Shown: in pieces, positions 742-25,745 of the stretch | Layout of the letters: each line of letters starts with the position of its first letter | Numbering within the stretch: the first letter of the stretch is position 1 | Virus record (IMG/VR): IMGVR_UViG_3300022921_001782 | Coordinates: 1-30,754 of that record | DNA length: 30,754 nt | Source of the DNA: a virus | Direction: 5' to 3' (one strand) | The notes under the pieces: model-generated | Database searches by the model: none | What the model was told of the DNA's origin: nothing | Seen by the model: the letters and a program-made list of their open reading frames with translations, nothing else | Program-made: the position numbers and the translations under genes

Positions 742-1173
742 CTATTCTGGATCTTTATCTTTAGGCATCTGTGCTTTGTGATCAAACTCATGCAGTCTAG
801 GAGTTTCGGCTTGCCCTTCTGGTTTCTTAACCATCACCGTTTTTCCATCCTTAACCAACTTGTTGCCCTTGACCATTTCTTTTTTAACTGCATCTGTGGC
901 AGGCAACACGTGCAGTCTAGGACCTTTATCAGTCATGATCAGCACAAATGCTTCATTGCCTATCACTTTGGAATACAAAAATTGAGATTCAGGCAAAGGT
1001 TGTTTGGTAGCATAGCCTTTGCTGGCTTCGTATACCATAAATCCAAACCCCATGGTGAACAACATCCACGGTATCACAATCAATGTTAACCAGAAATTGG
1101 CTCGGGCTCGCACCATAAAGAAAATTAAAAATAAAACCAATAGAACCAAACTGCCTGTGATAAAATATTCCAT
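742..1173 (-). CDS. Two-TM membrane protein, third gene of the exbB/exbD-like operon
   Basis: The 143-aa protein starts MEYFITGSLVLLVLFLIFFM and has two hydrophobic helices (about residues 5-21 and 28-48). A polar C-terminal domain of about 90 residues follows, rich in Lys and Pro and ending KAQMPKDKDPE. Its ATG overlaps the stop of the ExbD-like gene by one base (TAATG), so it is translated with the proton-channel pair and is likely a partner of it. I recognise no family. The C-terminal domain may be cytoplasmic or periplasmic depending on topology. Confidence 0.8.
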   Translation of the reverse strand: MEYFITGSLVLLVLFLIFFMVRARANFWLTLIVIPWMLFTMGFGFMVYEASKGYATKQPLPESQFLYSKVIGNEAFVLIMTDKGPRLHVLPATDAVKKEMVKGNKLVKDGKTVMVKKPEGQAETPRLHEFDHKAQMPKDKDPE

Positions 1174-1811
1174 TACTGTCCTGCTCCCCTGTAACTGAAT
1201 TTAGGAATGGTTCCCACAGCACTGATGTCAGTGTTCTCCAAACAACAAATTCCGCCTCTTTCAGATACATTGAACTTATAGAAGTGAATTGCTTCTCCTT
1301 CATCGTAAATTTTTTTAGTCTGGGTGTAGACTTCTCTGTAAGGATTAACTTTCATAACTTTAATAGTGATGGGTATGCCGTTAATCTCGTTGTCACGTAA
1401 TCTTTGTTTGGAATAGAAGTGTACACTCACATAATAGTCACCGGATGCTATGCCTCTAACAGTGGTAGTTTCTTCGTTGCTCTGAATTATGTTGGGTTTA
1501 CCATCAATGTAATAGGTATCGTTGGCCACTCCCAAATCATCTCTTTCCAAATTCAATAGACCAGATTCCTTGTTGGCGAATCCCACCTTGTTGCCTTGTG
1601 GTCCCATGACCCATAAATCTATATCGTGCAAAGAATTTTTGTCCCAAGTCATTGTGATTATAATTTCAGCCTTCTTCTGGATGTCGGCTTTCTTAGCCAC
1701 AGGATTGATCAACAAGAATGCCACCAAGAATAGGAACACAAATCCAACCAAGATGTTGAACAGTAGGTCAACAAAGCCAATTGTGGATTTATATCTATCT
1801 TGTGAATACAT
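1173..1811 (-). CDS. ExbD/TolR-like stator protein with a DUF2135-like domain
   Basis: The protein has 212 aa. A single N-terminal TM helix (about residues 13-36) carries Asp15 in the context FVDLLFN, the place where ExbD, TolR and MotB carry their proton-binding Asp. The exterior part is not the usual small TolR fold. Residues about 52-78 (TWDKNSLHDIDLWVMGPQG) resemble the DUF2135/YfaP-type motif W(D)..DxDLxVxxPxG, in a beta-rich periplasmic domain. The gene overlaps the upstream ExbB/TolQ-like gene by 17 nt, so the two probably form one inner-membrane proton-channel complex. The family assignment is inferred from topology, the Asp and its neighbour; the DUF2135 resemblance is moderate. Confidence 0.72.
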   Translation of the reverse strand: MYSQDRYKSTIGFVDLLFNILVGFVFLFLVAFLLINPVAKKADIQKKAEIIITMTWDKNSLHDIDLWVMGPQGNKVGFANKESGLLNLERDDLGVANDTYYIDGKPNIIQSNEETTTVRGIASGDYYVSVHFYSKQRLRDNEINGIPITIKVMKVNPYREVYTQTKKIYDEGEAIHFYKFNVSERGGICCLENTDISAVGTIPKFSYRGAGQ

Positions 1812-2289
1812 CGTGTTTCTTCTGATCCAGCAAGTGTTCTAAATTAACCAATTGGGATTTGATATACAAACCACACACCAAACCTACCAACGTGGTGTAG
1901 AGTGCTGTACTCATGCCCACCGCCATAGATGACAGTGCTGTTTGAAGAGTGGCTGTGTCTGCCACATCGATGCCTGAAAATGCTGATCCCAACATCAGTA
2001 GGAATCCAGCCACTGTGCCGATCATTCCTATTGCCATACAAGTTTCGCTTAAGAACCAACCTATCTTGATGAGATACGATACATGAACTCTAACAAATCT
2101 TGCCTGCCAAAATCCTATCCAAAGAGTTGTGATCAACCAAATGGATAGTATAACGAAACTTAATTTTGTTAAGTCTTGTTCCCATAGTTCTTGGACAGCA
2201 CCAAAGTATCCTGCAATGCCGAATGAAAGAACTTGTAAACAGACGATGGCCCACCATCTTATTAAACTTTGTTTTGTGCGTGAAATCAT
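1795..2289 (-). CDS. MotA/TolQ/ExbB-like proton channel protein
   Basis: The 164-aa protein has three or four hydrophobic helices (about 12-33, 43-62, 83-105 and 122-146). The stretch ETCMAIGMIGTVAGFLLML followed by MAVGMSTALYTTLVGLVCGL matches the conserved core of the family (GxxGTVxG, then A(L)xTTxxGLxxG). It is short for TolQ/ExbB (about 230 aa) because the cytoplasmic loop is reduced. It lies directly behind a perfect TATAAATA late promoter and is followed by an overlapping ExbD-like partner. Bacterial homologues turn proton flow into work on the envelope. A role in lysis, DNA entry or exclusion of other phages is conjecture. Confidence 0.8.
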   Translation of the reverse strand: MISRTKQSLIRWWAIVCLQVLSFGIAGYFGAVQELWEQDLTKLSFVILSIWLITTLWIGFWQARFVRVHVSYLIKIGWFLSETCMAIGMIGTVAGFLLMLGSAFSGIDVADTATLQTALSSMAVGMSTALYTTLVGLVCGLYIKSQLVNLEHLLDQKKHDVFTR

Positions 2290-2295
2290 TAAATC

Positions 2296-2303
2296 TATTT
2301 ATA
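2296..2303 (-). promoter_or_regulatory. T4-type late promoter for the exbB-like operon
   Basis: Minus-strand TATAAATA, identical to the T4 late consensus, lies 6 nt before the ATG at 2287-2289. By T4 geometry transcription would start about one base before the start codon. Confidence 0.8.
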
Positions 2304-2331
2304 ATTTATGTTGTGGTGCCAGACAAATTGT

Positions 2332-6759: not shown

Positions 6760-8667
6760 TTATTTGTCTTTATCGTCTTTTTTGACTTCTTCAAACTCAG
6801 CATCTACCACTTTTTCATTGTTTGATTCTTCAGTGGTACCTTGTTCGGAGTTGGCTTGTTCTTGTTGAGCCTGTTTGTACACAGCCTCTCCCAGTTTCAT
6901 TGACGCTTCAGTCAATTTACCAATTGCTGATTTAATTTTATCAGCATCATCTGATTTAGATGCTTCAAGCAATTCCGATTTAGCATCTTCGATTGCTTTT
7001 TTCTCCTCTTCAGAGATTTTATCTCCATGTTCTTTGAGTTGTTTGTCAATTTGATGTGTCAATGTTTCTGATTGATTTTTGGCTTCCACCAACTCTCTTT
7101 TCTTTTTGTCCGCTTCTTTGTTGGCTTCTGCTTCTTTAACCATTTTCTCAATGTCAGCATCTGATAGACCACCGTCTGCTTTGATTGTGATCTTTTGTTC
7201 TTTGCCAGTGCCTTTGTCTTTAGCACTCACACTCACAATACCATTGGCATCGATATCGAATGTTACTTCAATCTGAGGTACTCCTCTTGGTGCAGGTGCT
7301 ATACCTTCAAGATTAAAGTTTCCTAATATCTTGTTGTCAGCCGCCATTTCTCTTTCACCTTGTGTAACTCTGATGGTCACTGCCGCTTGGTTGTCTTCTG
7401 CTGTGGAAAACACTTGACTTTTCTTTGTAGGAATTGTTGTGTTCTTTTCAATCAGTTTGGTTGTAACACCGCCTAGTGTTTCGATACCAAGTGACAAAGG
7501 TGTAACGTCTAACAACAATACATCCTTAACATCTCCCTGTAATACTCCACCCTGAATTGCGGCACCCAATGCCACAACTTCGTCTGGGTTAACACCTTTG
7601 TGTGGTTCTTTACCAAAGAATGTTTTCACTGTTTCGATCACTTTAGGCATACGTGTCATACCACCTACCAACACAACTTCACTGATTTGTCCTGCTGAAA
7701 CTCCAGCATCTTTCAATGCTTGTTTGCAAGGAGACAATGTTTTCTCAATAAGTTCACCCACCAATGCTTCCAGTTTGGCTCGTGTCATCTTCATGTTGAT
7801 GTGTTTAGGTCCTGATTTGTCTGCTGTGATAAACGGTAAATTAACTTCTGTTTGACTAGCAGATGAAAGTTCTATCTTTGCTTTTTCAGCCGCTTCTCGA
7901 ACACGTTGTACTGCCAATTTATCGTTGGCTAAATCTATACCTTGATCTTTCTTAAATTCAGAAATGATATAGTTTGTGATTGTGGCATCAAAGTCTTCAC
8001 CACCCAGTGCTGTATCACCGTTTGTGGACTTAACTTCAAATACACCGTCACCCAATTCTAAGATTGAAATATCAAATGTACCACCACCCAAGTCGTACAC
8101 AGCAATAGTGCCTGATTTTTTCTTATCAAGTCCATATGCCAATGCCGCCGCAGTTGGTTCGTTTATAATTCTTTCCACTTCCAATCCAGCAATCTTACCT
8201 GCGTCTTTGGTAGCCTTACGTTGGCTATCATTGAAGTATGCCGGCACAGTAATCACTGCCTTGGTTACTTCAGAACCTAGATATTTTTCTGCTGTCTCTT
8301 TCATCTTACGAAGCACAGAAGCAGATATTTCTGATGGAGAAAGTTTCTTATCCTTGGCTTTTACCCAAGCATCTCCGTTGTCTGCTTTTACAACTTCATA
8401 AGGAAGTGTTTTAATGTCTTTTTGTATAGCATCGCTATCAAACTGTCTACCAATCAATCTCTTTGCCGCGAAGATTGTGTTGGATGAATTTGATACTGCT
8501 TGTCTTTTAGCAGGCATTCCTACCAATGTTTCAGAGTCTGTGAATGCAACCACACTTGGAGTGGTTCTAGATCCTTCTGAGTTTTCAATAACTTTTGCGT
8601 CCTTACCTTCCATCAAAGCAACGCAAGAGTTGGTTGTTCCCAAGTCTATTCCTATTATTTTGCTCAT
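6760..8667 (-). CDS. dnaK: DnaK (Hsp70) chaperone
   Basis: Full length at 635 aa (E. coli DnaK has 638). The ATPase domain opens with [14 protein letters not shown] and has [37 protein letters not shown] and [14 protein letters not shown]. The substrate domain includes [16 protein letters not shown]. The C-terminus ends [16 protein letters not shown], close to the usual DnaK tail. It is thus an intact bacterial-type ATP-driven folding chaperone. The ATG has AAGGAG upstream and a sigma70-like promoter at 8707-8736. No dnaJ or grpE is present, so it must use host cochaperones. A complete DnaK is unusual in a phage and was probably acquired from a bacterium. Confidence 0.97.
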
Positions 8668-8706
8668 AGTTTTTCTCCTTTATAAGCGAGTTATTAGTTA
8701 CAGTAG

Positions 8707-8736
8707 ATTATATAAGCACTCTTTTGTAAATGTCAA
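8707..8736 (-). promoter_or_regulatory. Sigma70-like promoter for dnaK
   Basis: Minus strand: TTGACA (8731-8736), an 18-nt spacer, then TATAAT (8707-8712), with TGCTTA just before the -10. It shares CTCTTGACA and TGCTTATATAAT with the groEL promoter. No heat-shock (sigma32) or CIRCE element is visible. Confidence 0.82.
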
Positions 8737-8750
8737 GAGCTTTTGGTAAA

Positions 8751-10406
8751 TTAATCGTAGAAGTCGCCTTCTTTCATATTGGTTCTATCTACTGGATTCC
8801 AATCTTTTTTAACATCTTCTGGAGCATCATACACAGATGCTTCTGTTGTTAAAAGTAGTCCTGCTATGCTTGATGCATTCACCAATGCTGTTTTGGTAAC
8901 CTTTGTAGGATCAATAATACCCAAATCAATCATATCACCATATTTGCCACTGCCAGCATCATAACCATAGTTGTCGGCACCATTCATGATTTCGTTCACA
9001 ACAACATCTGGAGAACCTCCAGCATTGGAAACTATCTGTCTAACTGGGGATTCAATTGCTTTCAACACAATCTGAATACCTGCTGTCTGATCTTCATTGT
9101 CCCCTTTGAGATCTTTGATATTCTGTTTGGCTCTTAAAAAAGCAACACCACCACCCGGCACAATACCATCTTCAACTGCCGCCTTTGTGGCGTTTAGAGC
9201 ATCGTCAATACGATCCTTTTTCTCTTTCATTTCAACTTCAGTAGCCGCTCCAACTCTTATTACAGCAACACCTCCAGTTAATTTTGCCAATCGTTCTTCA
9301 AGTTTCTTTTTGTCATCTCCGCCTTCACTCTGTTCTATTTGTGTTTTGATAGCAGTGACTCTCTGTTCAATTTTAGATTTTAATCCTTTACCGCCAATAA
9401 TTGTTGTTGTATTTTTATCAACTACAACTCTTGCCGCCTGTCCTAAATGTTCAAGTTTTGCTTTTTCTAAAGATATTCCTGTTTCTTCTGAAATTACTTG
9501 TCCACCAGTCAACACTGCCATATCTTCAAGCATGGCTTTTCTTGTGTTACCAAATCCAGGAGCCCAAACTGATGCACATCTAATGGTTCCTTTGGCATTG
9601 TTCATTACCAATGTGGCAAGTGCTTCGCCTTCAGCATCTTCACAAATAAACAAAAATGGTTTATTTTTCTTTGCTAGTTCTTCAAGCAACGGCACTATCT
9701 CTTGAATATTTCTTATGTGTTTTCCTGTTAAGATGATGTAAACATCTTCTAATTCAACGATTTGTTTTTCAGGATTATTAATGAAGTACGGACTCATAAA
9801 TCCTTTATCAAATTGTAATCCTTCAACAACTTCTAATTCGTTTTTTAAACTTCTTCCATTCTCAACTGTGATAACACCTTGTTTGCCTACTTTCTGCATT
9901 GCTTCAGCAATCATTGTTCCAATGGCTTTGTCTGAATTAGCAGATATAGTACCAACTTGTTCTATCTCATTTTGAGTATCGCATGATTTGGAAATTAATT
10001 TTAGTTGTTCAACAACTGCTTCTGTGGCTTGATCCATGCCTCTTTTTAGATCCATTGGATTCATTCCAGCAGTTACATATTTGATTCCTTCTTTAACAAT
10101 CGCCTGTGCTAACACTGTGGCTGTGGTTGTTCCATCGCCCGCTTCATCATTTGTTTTGCTGGCTACTTCTTTAACCATCTGAGCACCCATATTGGCCAGG
10201 TCATCTCTTAATAAAATTTCTCTTGCTACTGTAACACCGTCTTTGGTTACGTGTGGAGCACCCCAAGTTCTTTGAAGCACAACATTTCTTCCTTTAGGTC
10301 CTAGTGTAGTTCTTACAGCATTTGCTAAAATATCTACACCTCTGATCAGTCTGTTTCTACTGTCAGATCCAAATCTAACACTTTTAACTTTTCCGTTAAT
10401 TGCCAT
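8751..10406 (-). CDS. groEL: GroEL (Hsp60) chaperonin
   Basis: 551 aa, against about 548 in E. coli. ATP-site motifs are present: [10 protein letters not shown] (34-42), [11 protein letters not shown] (90-100) and the catalytic Asp in [23 protein letters not shown] region. The apical domain keeps EGEALATLV and APGFG. The groove binding GroES and substrate stays hydrophobic ([10 protein letters not shown]). The C-terminus ends NMKEGDFYD and lacks the Gly-Gly-Met tail usual in bacterial GroEL. No groES lies nearby, so a host or distant cochaperonin is needed. It probably helps fold phage capsid proteins. Own promoter at 10445-10474. Confidence 0.96.
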
Positions 10407-20887: not shown

Positions 20888-22006
20888 ATGCGTTGGTTAC
20901 TCCTTGTATTATTTCTATTCAGCGCCACGAACAGTGTGGCGTCGATAGGAGATGTGAGAGAGCAAAAAGGTGAAGGCACAATTGAAAGACAGGCAGGCGA
21001 CAAGTTAGATTCAACTCAAGGCACAGCAATTGAAAGTTATGACACTGTGCGTACCAAGATAGGAAGAATATCCATAGAGTTTGTGGATGAAACCAGAGTT
21101 GATATCACAGAAAATTCCAAATTGGTCATAGACGAATTCATTTACGATCCCAATTCAAAGACAGGTGCTGTGTCACTCAAAGCAGGCTTTGGCACAGTGA
21201 GATATGCTTCGGGACAGATAGCAAAAAATTCAAGACAGAACGTGAAGATCAGCACACCAACAGCAGTGGTGGGTGTGAGAGGCACAGACTTTTCATTAAC
21301 AGTGGATGAAACAGGTTCTAGCACCATCATACTGTTACCCAGTTGTACCATCATTGCCAATGAAAGAGTGTGTGTGACAGGAGAAATATCTGTGGAGTCA
21401 GATGTGGGCATTGTGATCATGAATCAAGCATTTCAAACCACTGTGGTAGAAACTGCTCAATCATCACCCTTAAAACCTTTGGTGTTGGATCTGGATGAAT
21501 CATTCATCAACAACCTACTGATCATCACACCTCCAGAGAAACTGGAAGAGGAAATGAACAAAGATGCCATACAGACTTTGGCTAATATATTGGATCTAGA
21601 TTTCCTCGTGTTTGAAGAACTGAGCACAGACTATCTGGCAGAAGGTGAAGCAGATCGTTGGCAGACGGATCTTGACTTTGATCCGCTCGCAGGTGACTTC
21701 CTGTTTGACGCACTGGATCAGAGTATGGACAATCTCATCAGGCAGGCACGAACTGATCTGGATCGTAAGCAGACCAATCCCAAGTTGGGGTTTGATGCTG
21801 AGACAGGCGTGACCATATTGAATCAGGATCCCAGATGGATTTACATCAGGGAGGGTGCTTCAGGCAACTATGTAAGGATGGAACTGCAACAGGGTTACAA
21901 CTACTCTATAGACCACAACCAGAACGGCAACGAGATAATAGGATTCGAGATCAACCCAGACGGTGGATCCATCAACAACAACATAACCATTAACCAACAG
22001 AACTAA
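20888..22006 (+). CDS. Secreted FecR-domain protein
   Basis: 372 aa with signal peptide (MRWLLLVLFLFSATNSVAS). Residues about 20-150 form a FecR-type beta domain: GEGTIERQAGDKLDSTQGTA, SIEFVDETRVDITENSKLVI, AGFGTVRYASGQI and STPTAVVGVRGTDFSL. A long acidic helical and beta region follows, and the end (NINQQN-like NNNITINQQN) has a curlin-like Asn/Gln tail. It is unlikely to be an iron-signalling anti-sigma partner, as no TM segment is seen after the signal. It sits inside the curli operon, so probably a surface partner of the fibre. Confidence 0.82.
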   Translation: MRWLLLVLFLFSATNSVASIGDVREQKGEGTIERQAGDKLDSTQGTAIESYDTVRTKIGRISIEFVDETRVDITENSKLVIDEFIYDPNSKTGAVSLKAGFGTVRYASGQIAKNSRQNVKISTPTAVVGVRGTDFSLTVDETGSSTIILLPSCTIIANERVCVTGEISVESDVGIVIMNQAFQTTVVETAQSSPLKPLVLDLDESFINNLLIITPPEKLEEEMNKDAIQTLANILDLDFLVFEELSTDYLAEGEADRWQTDLDFDPLAGDFLFDALDQSMDNLIRQARTDLDRKQTNPKLGFDAETGVTILNQDPRWIYIREGASGNYVRMELQQGYNYSIDHNQNGNEIIGFEINPDGGSINNNITINQQN

Positions 22007-23475
22007 TGTTTGAGAGATTTTTATATAGACTGGTGTACATATTGTTTGGCTTGGTGCTGTGGATGGCCCTGACGTCAAAAGCGGAAGCGGATTCGGTATT
22101 GGTGCTACACCAGAACTACGGTGGTGCTCATACAAATATAGGAAGTAGATTATTTACTGAAGGACATACTATTACCTATTCAACAGGAGGTGTGCCCACA
22201 GATGTCAGCAGTTATCAACAGATATGGGATTTAAGATATAACAACACATATGCGGCATCAGAAGTCACTGTATTGGACAACTTCGTGAAGAATGGTGGCT
22301 TCCTGATGATGAACGGTGAGAACTCTGGTTTCGCTTCTAGGAACAATGCCATCGCTACTGTGGTCAGCACAGCAGGTGGTGGCACACTAACTTTTGGATC
22401 TGGCTCCAATTCCTACACCGTGATCAACACAGCATTCTCCGATGACACAGGCACGGTCACAGGTGCGGCTGGTAGTAGTCTGTCCAACTCACAGGGTCAG
22501 TATGTGTTTAAAACCAGCGGAGGTGTGATAGGTGGTATGATATGGCAGTCAGCGGATCTGGGATCAGGATACACAGGTGCTATATTTGTAACGGCTGATA
22601 TAAATTTGTGGGATAGTACATATGGTACATACATTTTAAAAGTCTACATCACAGATGACATCCTGGATATGGAAACCGCAGGCACTTTATATGGTTCAGC
22701 ATCCGCACCCACATATTCATCGGCACCAACTGCCGCACAGTTACAATCAAGAACTGACGCCAGGAACATCACACCCAACGGCAATGAGATCTACATCACA
22801 CAGTCAGGCAACAATCTGGATCTGGACATTGTGCAATACGACAACGATCAGTTGGTGGCTGGCACAGGATCAACCAGTTCAAATTTAACAGACGCCACGA
22901 TCACGGGAGATGACAACACCGTGGCAATCACGCAGGGAAATTCAGCGGGATCATTCAGTGACAACAACGTCACACTGTTGGACATCAACGGCACCAACAA
23001 CTCAGTCACTGTGAGACAGGGTGACAACGTGGATGACGCGGGTGGGCATCGCAGTTCAACCAACGTGGTAGGCAACTACAACACCTTAGGTATTCTACAG
23101 GAGAACGATGGTGGTATAGGCTCTTCGGGACACTACATGGAGATAGATATCGCAGGCAACTCAAACACTGCCTATGCTGATCAAAAGGACGATGGTGACA
23201 AGATGCTGTTCCTGGACGTGAATGGAGCCAGCAACACTGTGGATATCCTACAACAGGGCACGGGAGAACACTTCTTGGATGTTACTGTGGGCAGTAATCA
23301 AACTGTGGACATCAATCAGGATGGTTCTGGATCGCACTCTGCCACCATTGATATGTCAGGCTATTCTGCCACGCTGGATCTGGATCAAACAGGCTCCACT
23401 GATCAAACATATTCTCTCAATCAGATCTGTACCAATGCCAACGGTTGCGGTACCACCACAGTGAATCAGAATTAA
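22006..23475 (+). CDS. Large secreted protein with curlin-type repeats
   Basis: 489 aa. Signal peptide ends SKAEA; residues about 30-250 form an alpha/beta domain (SVLVLHQNYGGAHTNIGSRL, YQQIWDLRY, VTVLDNFVKNGGFLMMNGEN) like class I glutamine-amidotransferase-like folds. From about residue 255 curlin-like repeats take over: GNEIYITQSGNNLDLDIVQY, DNTVAITQGN, NNSVTVRQGDN, YNTLGILQEND, SNTVDILQQGTG, QTVDINQDGSG. GNEIYITQSGNNLDLDI copies the curlin start NDIYIQQSGDNLDLDI, so the two genes share an origin. It is probably a fibre subunit or tip protein. The stop/start overlap with the FecR gene is TAATG. Confidence 0.8.
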   Translation: MFERFLYRLVYILFGLVLWMALTSKAEADSVLVLHQNYGGAHTNIGSRLFTEGHTITYSTGGVPTDVSSYQQIWDLRYNNTYAASEVTVLDNFVKNGGFLMMNGENSGFASRNNAIATVVSTAGGGTLTFGSGSNSYTVINTAFSDDTGTVTGAAGSSLSNSQGQYVFKTSGGVIGGMIWQSADLGSGYTGAIFVTADINLWDSTYGTYILKVYITDDILDMETAGTLYGSASAPTYSSAPTAAQLQSRTDARNITPNGNEIYITQSGNNLDLDIVQYDNDQLVAGTGSTSSNLTDATITGDDNTVAITQGNSAGSFSDNNVTLLDINGTNNSVTVRQGDNVDDAGGHRSSTNVVGNYNTLGILQENDGGIGSSGHYMEIDIAGNSNTAYADQKDDGDKMLFLDVNGASNTVDILQQGTGEHFLDVTVGSNQTVDINQDGSGSHSATIDMSGYSATLDLDQTGSTDQTYSLNQICTNANGCGTTTVNQN

Positions 23476-23489
23476 GCACTCATTTAAAA

Positions 23490-23495
23490 TAAATA
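23490..23495 (+). promoter_or_regulatory. T4-type late promoter (small secreted protein and cyclase)
   Basis: AATAAATA (last six bases 23490-23495), 8 nt before the ATG at 23504. The predicted leader is about 3 nt. Confidence 0.7.
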
Positions 23496-23503
23496 CACAC
23501 ATA

Positions 23504-23707
23504 ATGATTAAACAGTTTTTCATCATACTGCTCTTCACCACAGGCGTTTGGGCCAACGATATCTATATGCAACAAACTCCAGAAAATCCTCAAGCAGACA
23601 AGCCAGCATTTATAGAAGAAAAACCTGTAACTTCTGAAAAAGAATTGATATCGCCTCCACAAAAAGAATTTTGTTCTGTAATAGCAGGGTGTTATGAAGC
23701 TCAGTAA
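23504..23707 (+). CDS. Small secreted protein with curlin-like N-terminus
   Basis: 67 aa. Signal peptide MIKQFFIILLFTTGVWA; the mature part begins NDIYMQQTPENPQADKP, nearly the same as the curlin start NDIYIQQSGDN, but has no repeats. A Pro/Lys/Glu-rich tail follows, with two Cys near the end (EFCSVIAGCYEAQ). The shared NDIYxQQ start may be the signal for CsgG export. It could cap or inhibit fibre growth, or be a secreted peptide. It is followed by the cyclase with a 14-nt overlap. The function is conjecture. Confidence 0.72.
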   Translation: MIKQFFIILLFTTGVWANDIYMQQTPENPQADKPAFIEEKPVTSEKELISPPQKEFCSVIAGCYEAQ

Positions 23708-25745
23708 ATTTTTCACACATTGGATATTCAGCATTGTTATATTAGCAGTCATAATGTTATGGGGTTATTCTGATCCTTTTGTAAAACAAACAGCCAGACT
23801 GAAATCTTTTGATCTTGTGCAAAAATATGACGTACCCACACTGTCGCAAGACATAGCCATTGTGGAGATAGATGAGAAGTCTATATCACAATACGGACAG
23901 TGGCCTTGGAAGCGAGATGTGATAGCAGACATCATATGGAGACTGCGTGAAGCAGGTGCAGGAGTTATTGTGTTGCCCATACTGTTTTCAGAAGAAGACA
24001 GATTGGGTGGAGATGATGCTTTGGTTCAAGCAATCAAAGACAACGGTGTGGTCATAGCACAGGTAGGAACCACACAAACAAATAAAAATGCTGTGCCGAG
24101 AGGTGTTGCTAAAATAGGTGATCCTATGCCTTGGCTGTTTGAATGGCCAGGTATGTTGGGACCAATAGAAACACTAGGTAACACAGCCGCAGGAGTGGGA
24201 GTGTTGAACACAGCACCTGAGATTGATGGTGTTGTGAGAAGACTGCCACTGTTGATGCGAGTGGACACAGAAACATATCCCAGCATAGCCATAGAAACAA
24301 TTCGTGTGGCAGTGGGAGATCCAAGTTACCAGGTTAAAACAGGTGAAGGTGGAATCATAGCACTGCGAGTTCCTCAATACAAAACTATTCAAACAGATGC
24401 CAATGCTCGTATATGGTTGCGTTGGAACAAAGAATTCATAACAGTCAGTGCCGTAGACAATTTCAAATCACTGCAAGGTAAAACAGTGATTATAGGAATC
24501 ACAGCAGAAGGATTGGGCAGTGTGATTGCCACACCCAACGGAGAGAAGTATGCTCATATGTTGCCAGCCACAGCATTACAAACCATCATCAATGGTGACA
24601 ACATTGTGCGTTTTGATTATGCAACATTTGTTGAGTATGTGGGCACAGCATTAATTGCCTTGATATTAATTTTTGCGGCGGCTTATGCACCTTATTGGTT
24701 GATTGGTGGCTTGTTGGTTTTGTTGTACACCAGTTCTGCTTATGGCAGTTACTTTGCTTTCACAAGACATCTTCAACTGTGGGACGTCAGTTGGTTATGG
24801 TTGGTCACAATCATAGTGAGTTTCCATGCTGTGTTCAATAGGTTTGTGATAGAGTTCTTTCAAAAGCAACAGATTAAGAAACAGTTTGGAGGATATGCTT
24901 CACCAACTGTGGTTGAGATGTTACAGAAAAATCCTGCTCTAATCAAACAAGGTGTTAAAAAAGAAGTTTCAATATGCTTCTCGGATCTCAGAGGATTCAC
25001 TCCATTGGGAGAATCATTTGGTGATGATGTAAAAGGTTTGACCGAAATAATGAATGGTTACATGGATGCTATCACACAACCTGTATTGGATGCTAATGGT
25101 ATGATCATAAAGTATATCGGTGATGCTTCCATGCACATTCACAATGCTCCTATTGATGATGAAAATCATCCACGCACAGCAGTTCAAACAGGTTTGAATA
25201 TGTTAAAAGCAGTGAAAGAATTTAATAAAAAAATAACATCACAAGGAAGACCTCCAATTGGCATGGGTGCTGGTATCAATACAGGCTTGGGATATATCGG
25301 AGAGATGGGTAGCACACAACGACATTCATATGATGTGTTGGGTGATGCTGTGTCCACCACAGCCAGACTGGAGTCACAGTGTAAGAATTATGGAGTGCTG
25401 TTGATAGTTGGACCTGAAACAGTGCGAAGAACTGAAAATGATTTCTTATATTTAAAACTGGATGATTTGGCTGTGAAAGGTAAAACAGTGGGATTAGAAA
25501 TTTACACAGTGTTGGATCTTAACAAAAACAATTACTCAGCAGAAATTAAAAAACACAATCAGATGCATGAGCTGTATAGAAAACAAGAATTTAAAAAAGC
25601 CATTTCTAAATGTAAACTGTTGAAAGAAGACTTTAAAGGTCAAATGAAAGGTTATTATGATATGTGGATTGAAAGATGTGAATTCATGATGACCCAACAA
25701 CTTCCGAAAGATTGGGATGGCATTTTTAGAGCTACCACAAAATAG
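23694..25745 (+). CDS. CHASE2 sensor and adenylate cyclase
   Basis: 683 aa: an N-terminal TM helix (8-25), an extracytoplasmic CHASE2 domain (about 35-300; VEIDEKSISQYGQWPWKRDV, GVIVLPILFSEEDRLGGDDA), three TM helices (about 312-382) and a class III cyclase domain (424-600). Metal residues Asp431 (CFSDLRGF) and Asp477 (YIGDASM), and adenine-specifying Lys473 and Asp551 (VLGDAV), are present, as is catalytic Arg558. The usual catalytic Asn is replaced by Ser554 (VSTTARLE), which may lower activity. It would make cAMP in response to a signal outside the membrane. It is located at the end of the curli operon. Confidence 0.93.
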   Translation: MKLSKFFTHWIFSIVILAVIMLWGYSDPFVKQTARLKSFDLVQKYDVPTLSQDIAIVEIDEKSISQYGQWPWKRDVIADIIWRLREAGAGVIVLPILFSEEDRLGGDDALVQAIKDNGVVIAQVGTTQTNKNAVPRGVAKIGDPMPWLFEWPGMLGPIETLGNTAAGVGVLNTAPEIDGVVRRLPLLMRVDTETYPSIAIETIRVAVGDPSYQVKTGEGGIIALRVPQYKTIQTDANARIWLRWNKEFITVSAVDNFKSLQGKTVIIGITAEGLGSVIATPNGEKYAHMLPATALQTIINGDNIVRFDYATFVEYVGTALIALILIFAAAYAPYWLIGGLLVLLYTSSAYGSYFAFTRHLQLWDVSWLWLVTIIVSFHAVFNRFVIEFFQKQQIKKQFGGYASPTVVEMLQKNPALIKQGVKKEVSICFSDLRGFTPLGESFGDDVKGLTEIMNGYMDAITQPVLDANGMIIKYIGDASMHIHNAPIDDENHPRTAVQTGLNMLKAVKEFNKKITSQGRPPIGMGAGINTGLGYIGEMGSTQRHSYDVLGDAVSTTARLESQCKNYGVLLIVGPETVRRTENDFLYLKLDDLAVKGKTVGLEIYTVLDLNKNNYSAEIKKHNQMHELYRKQEFKKAISKCKLLKEDFKGQMKGYYDMWIERCEFMMTQQLPKDWDGIFRATTK

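Follow-up and report, generated by a model that had tools for sequence, protein, structure and literature searches.

A conserved three-gene membrane module of viruses and Proteobacteria that probably encodes a stator-type motor

In this study, we analysed a three-gene membrane module in the viral record IMGVR_UViG_3300022921_001782, whose whole 30.8-kb stretch is called the window in the following. The module, which had been claimed in an earlier note without giving its strand, proved to be real: three overlapping ORFs, all located on the minus strand, span exactly positions 742-2289, with overlaps of 17 nt (ORF1/ORF2) and 1 nt (ORF2/ORF3). Judged by sequence comparison, this trio is a conserved module, and it very probably represents a proton-driven stator-type motor. 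To the complete explanation, i.e. a proton-driven motor with its own transducer serving envelope maintenance or remodelling, we assign a probability of about 0.5. The coordinates of all features are given in Table 1.

Table 1. Positions of the features analysed, referring to the window unless a locus is named.
Feature	Position	Strand	Basis
ExbB/MotA-type channel protein, 164 aa (P0001)	1795..2289	-	Pfam MotA_ExbB; T92 and T133 aligned to E. coli ExbB
ExbD-like axle protein, 212 aa (P0002)	1173..1811	-	AF2 model; alignment; gene order in 61 viral loci
Membrane Asp15 codon	1767..1769	-	Sequence conservation; aligned with ExbD Asp (weak match, prob 5.5)
DUF2135-like beta domain, P0002 residues 47-183	1263..1673	-	HHalign; acidic residues in 124/124
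Third protein, 143 aa (P0003), proposed transducer	742..1173	-	AF2 model; same-place homologues in viral and bacterial loci
P0003 C-terminal peptide motif, residues 128-139	757..792	-	Aligned Pro / Lys in 120 sequences
T4-type late promoter motif TATAAATA	2296..2303	-	Exact match; enriched upstream of viral relatives
Trypsin-like protease of rhizobial phages	L229:2649-3296, L231:2132-2842, L230:2057-2779, L065:3184-4083

P0001 matched the Pfam family MotA_ExbB (PF01618) with an E-value of 6.9e-7 and 29.5 bits, above the curated cut-off of 22.9, which confirmed the claim of a compact ExbB-like protein; in a PDB sequence search, only weak MotA matches were obtained. Its residues T92 and T133 align with T148 and T181 of E. 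coli ExbB, and the equivalent threonines are kept in all 117 marine viral and bacterial relatives. The replacement of T92 by Ala or Asn in 3 of the 8 rhizobial phage copies counts against the motor explanation. In viral and SAR116 copies, the ExbB-like protein mostly comprises 145-190 aa versus ~245 aa in gammaproteobacteria, the phage copies being ~80 residues shorter than the bacterial form; the viral and SAR116 proteins can therefore be regarded as a trimmed form.

In the AF2 model of P0002 (mean pLDDT 84.6), one membrane helix is formed by residues 7-35 with Asp15 near its start, and the beta domain is modelled at good confidence. The earlier note had staked its proposal on conservation of Asp15. 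This residue was found to be invariant in the 49 unique viral and window sequences, all marine, and present in 118/124 once bacteria and cultured phages were added. The six sequences without it, which count against the motor explanation, form one alphaproteobacterial clade with Val at this position and Asp four residues earlier (L150-L153, L160 and L161, from large alphaproteobacterial-type genomes). In a profile-profile comparison, Asp15 was aligned on the ExbD Asp, but the match was weak, which likewise counts against the motor explanation, and none of 43 P0002-family members matched Pfam ExbD (PF02472) at E 0.1. From the description as an ExbD-like protein with a membrane Asp, the conserved Asp helix thus stands, but any likeness of the sequences to ExbD is limited to this helix.

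The beta domain of P0002 was aligned with DUF2135 (PF09906) over 117 columns by profile-profile comparison using HHalign (prob 97.5, E 7.8e-12), in agreement with the view that a DUF2135-like domain replaces the TolR fold. A plain Pfam search with P0002 did not detect DUF2135, and in plain searches of 43 relatives it was found in only one (E 0.043). The residues D63, D65, D91, D92 and E114 are kept in all 124 sequences, which suggests a putative metal site. No relative of P0002 was found in a PDB sequence search. Among PDB folds, the axle protein matched the TerD fold best; this reading of the domain (TerD, PF02342) was dropped, because the profile-profile probability was 0.5 and sequence support is thus absent.

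For P0003, two membrane helices were modelled (AF2, pLDDT 71) together with a small domain predicted at low confidence, after which a linker leads to a conserved C-terminal peptide. In this peptide, 105 of 120 aligned sequences have a Pro and 108 a Lys; the window protein keeps the Lys and lacks that Pro. The claim of a coupled third membrane protein is in accordance with the 1-nt overlap with ORF2 and the two modelled helices, and homologues hold the same position in viral and bacterial loci. Searches of Pfam, NCBIfam, PDB sequences and PDB folds yielded no TonB/TolA C-terminal domain or TonB-type match, with no significant hit of any kind among the PDB folds and nothing convincing among the PDB sequences. 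By analogy with TonB and TolA, we give P0003 even chances of being the transducer of the motor.

Using the ExbB-like protein as query, 61 related viral loci were found, in which the partner genes were then located by profile; a pattern scan with P0002 alone returned no viral relatives. In each of the 61 loci, the ExbB-like gene is immediately followed by the ExbD-like gene, and the third gene is present in nearly all of them, wherever the contig extends far enough (that of L002 ends before the third-gene position). The module, which the earlier note had suggested looking for in other marine phages, hence recurs across related viral loci. The T4-type capsid protein Gp23 was encoded in 3 of the 45 viral records searched, including one of 328 kb; many of these records are fragments. 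The trio is not specific to phages as the earlier note had implied, but occurs on the chromosomes of Proteobacteria as well: of the 306 bacterial relatives that a genome scan reported, 80 were examined and all 80 carried the full trio, and the ExbD-like gene occurred in 16/398 genomes of a draw across Pseudomonadota. Among cultured phages, the ExbD-like protein is encoded in 27 records, all from Rhizobium or Sinorhizobium phages, and all three genes were found in 8/8 cultured rhizobial phages examined, where they carry no annotation beyond "hypothetical" or a number (p038, p040 and p042 in phage 16-3). Plasmid relatives are distant and were found in Azospirillum only.

In the cultured-phage collection, the window ExbB-like protein had no match. 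The curlin-repeat and CHASE2-cyclase genes of the window match those of two cultured marine myophages of T4-like type, Melnitz, which infects OM43, and HTVC008M, which infects SAR11. Both of these close relatives lack the trio, which counts against our explanation, and the trio is therefore dispensable in this group. The curlin-repeat protein gene is followed by the gene of a CHASE2 adenylate/guanylate cyclase at 22006-25745 on the plus strand; curli-type clusters with such a gene pair have been described for pelagiphages and Melnitz (PMC9599517, PMC9004378). Genes for Hsp70 (635 aa) and a Cpn60/GroEL-like protein (551 aa) adjoin at 6760-10406 on the minus strand, the Hsp70 showing up to ~68% identity to DnaK-like proteins of the phage collection. 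Three tRNA genes (Gln, Ala, Cys) are arranged in tandem at 2371-2610 on the plus strand and are transcribed away from the trio.

In the tree, viral and bacterial labels switch sides at least four times, several long branches leaving parts of it unsure. A chromosomal clade of mostly gammaproteobacteria is set apart, and a chromosomal clade from SAR116 falls within the viral sequences. This pattern suggests an old exchange between phages and bacteria, in either direction. The trio is named by no Pfam, NCBIfam or PADLOC family. In the literature searched, no ExbB/TolQ-type motor encoded by a phage was described, and we found no paper on DUF2135 and none combining ExbB and pelagiphage; ExbB, TolQ and ExbD are not mentioned in pelagiphage papers (PMC7029224, PMC9599517), nor ExbB or MotA in the AP-16-3 paper (PMC10460002).

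In the mechanism that we propose, the products of all three genes would form one membrane machine. On the model of ExbB-ExbD and TolQ-TolR, five ExbB/MotA-like copies would encircle two ExbD-like proteins at their helices. Rotation would be caused by protons moving past Asp15 and the ring's conserved threonines, and the DUF2135-like axle domains and the third protein would pass this motion to an envelope target, like TolA and TonB in their systems. In the infected cell, such a machine might maintain or remodel the periplasm and cell wall. This explanation is favoured because of the MotA_ExbB match, the conserved ion-path residues, namely T92/T133 and Asp15, the constant gene order in the viral loci, the 80 bacterial loci and the eight cultured rhizobial phages, the DUF2135-like domain and the conserved C-terminal peptide of P0003; the ion-path residues and the gene order also support the minimal proton-driven motor claimed before. 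We infer the 5:2 assembly, proton use, periplasmic orientation and force transfer, and more weakly the role in the envelope.

Compared at the level of sequence with known systems, the channel protein places the trio with the ExbB/TolQ/MotA motors, and the axle and third proteins differ from those of every named system tested. With ExbB-ExbD-TonB, the trio shares the T148/T181 threonines of the channel, a one-helix partner with a membrane Asp and the number of three membrane components, but its axle domain is DUF2135-like and does not have the ExbD fold, its third protein has two helices without a TonB domain, and phages and SAR116 have a shorter channel protein. It resembles TolQ-TolR-TolA (Tol-Pal) in motor principle, third membrane component and envelope setting, but contains no homologue of TolR, TolA, TolB or Pal. 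The MotA-MotB flagellar stator belongs to the same channel family, with a weak profile match of P0001 to solved MotA, whereas the trio lacks an OmpA-like peptidoglycan-binding domain and a flagellar context. The channel core is also common to ZorA-ZorB (Zorya), but the long ZorA tail, ZorB and ZorC/D/E are missing. DUF2135 proteins, such as E. coli YfaP, share the beta domain with its W...DxDLxVxxPxG motif; in the trio, the domain is fused to a membrane-Asp helix within a motor operon.

Upstream of ORF1, a perfect late promoter had been claimed, and an exact match to TATAAATA is indeed located 6 nt before the ATG. The motif count in the window is not above chance (2 found versus 1.8 expected), but NATAAATA is enriched upstream of the relatives: on the sense strand, it occurs within ≤80 nt in 20 of 46 unique viral loci (0.96 expected), and on the antisense strand of the same span in none of the 46. 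Upstream of other ORFs in those loci, it was found in 34/281 cases (Fisher p 2e-6, an optimistic value since the loci are related). In the window (2289-2310) and in L002 (just upstream of 6001), the motif lies 5-6 nt before the start codon, which leaves no room for a ribosome-binding site and therefore possibly results in a leaderless late mRNA; assuming T4 spacing, hardly any leader would remain on the window transcript. Late expression, as claimed, is hence plausible for the T4-like marine group, but elsewhere the context differs: a DNA polymerase gene adjoins downstream of the trio in 14 other marine viral loci, and in rhizobial phages the trio is located among replication genes. Because of these settings, its timing may differ between lineages.

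With respect to the neighbouring genes, an SbmA/BacA-like peptide transporter gene is present downstream in 14 unique viral loci, 2-3 kb from the trio start (for example L057:8969-10015; PF05992, E 1.7e-76), and genes for Hsp20, ClpS-like and ClpA-like proteins are found near viral trios. A trypsin-like protease gene is located directly upstream of the ExbB-like gene in the rhizobial phages X2_25, TM3_3_14B and NV1.1.1, one small gene upstream in phage 16-3, and ~1.5 kb downstream of the trio in phage N3_13. This protease carries an N-terminal hydrophobic stretch, its gene overlaps the ExbB-like gene by 4 nt in X2_25 and TM3_3_14B, and homing endonucleases are inserted within several of the rhizobial trio/protease cassettes. 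In bacteria, a YkuD-family gene is found upstream in 17 and a VWA-FHA protein downstream in 9 of 34 representatives. The protease, SbmA/BacA, Hsp20, Clp and YkuD neighbours suggest envelope maintenance or remodelling, and because of them we tentatively favour this job, at somewhat less than even odds. Against it and the complete explanation count that the neighbours vary between lineages and that bacterial synteny around the trio partly reflects a common chromosomal context of related genomes. No evidence points specifically to lysis timing, exclusion or Tol interference.

Superinfection exclusion, in which an inner-membrane machine would block competing phages or toxins or disturb the host Tol system used by them, is the first alternative to consider, although we regard it as unlikely. 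T4-like phages commonly achieve exclusion by means of small membrane proteins, the patchy presence of the trio among related phages fits an accessory trait, and a secreted protease stands beside it in rhizobial phages; on the other hand, the same three genes are also chromosomal in bacteria, a passive blocker would not need conserved ion-path residues, and late promoters would be late for exclusion. The promoter motif and the proton channel family of P0001 would fit lysis timing, with a channel that dissipates or monitors the proton gradient at a late stage of infection and in this way times or triggers lysis. This is nevertheless improbable, given that a leak needs neither the constant ExbD-like partner nor the third protein, that bacterial chromosomes retain the trio, and that rhizobial phages carry it among replication genes. 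Slightly less probable still is nutrient uptake, with the trio energising outer-membrane transport instead of the host ExbB-ExbD-TonB: the motor family is shared with ExbB and the tail of the third protein reaches away from the membrane, but this protein has no TonB-type match in the searches listed above and the axle domain is not of the ExbD fold. A trimmed decoy that would poison ZorAB, the motor of Zorya defence, is very improbable. In its favour are the shortened phage copies and a weak similarity of the ExbB-like protein to ZorA profiles (best E 2.6e-4), but the ZorA matches cover only the common channel core, protein 2 has no ZorB-like match, and since bacteria carry the same trio, a decoy is needless as an explanation for it. 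Membership in Zorya itself was rejected, the ZorA bits being far below the NCBIfam cut-offs and protein 2 having no PADLOC match.

Taken as a motor for envelope work, the trio, carried by large groups of marine and rhizobial phages, would represent a class of ion-driven 5:2 motors that has so far escaped recognition, having a DUF2135 axle and a two-helix transducer of its own. It would perform mechanical work at the envelope during infection, and its chromosomal relatives would serve an envelope job in Proteobacteria; we hold the arguments for and against this to be about evenly balanced. Carriers of the trio range from T4-like marine viruses through several cultured lineages of rhizobial phages, among them the classical phage 16-3, to bacterial chromosomes. 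Since rhizobial phages are open to cultivation and mutation, the trio is a tractable test case. If the explanation is true, both the axle domain and the third partner would be new to the 5:2 motor family, and the trio raises the question why viruses devote genes to periplasmic mechanical work.
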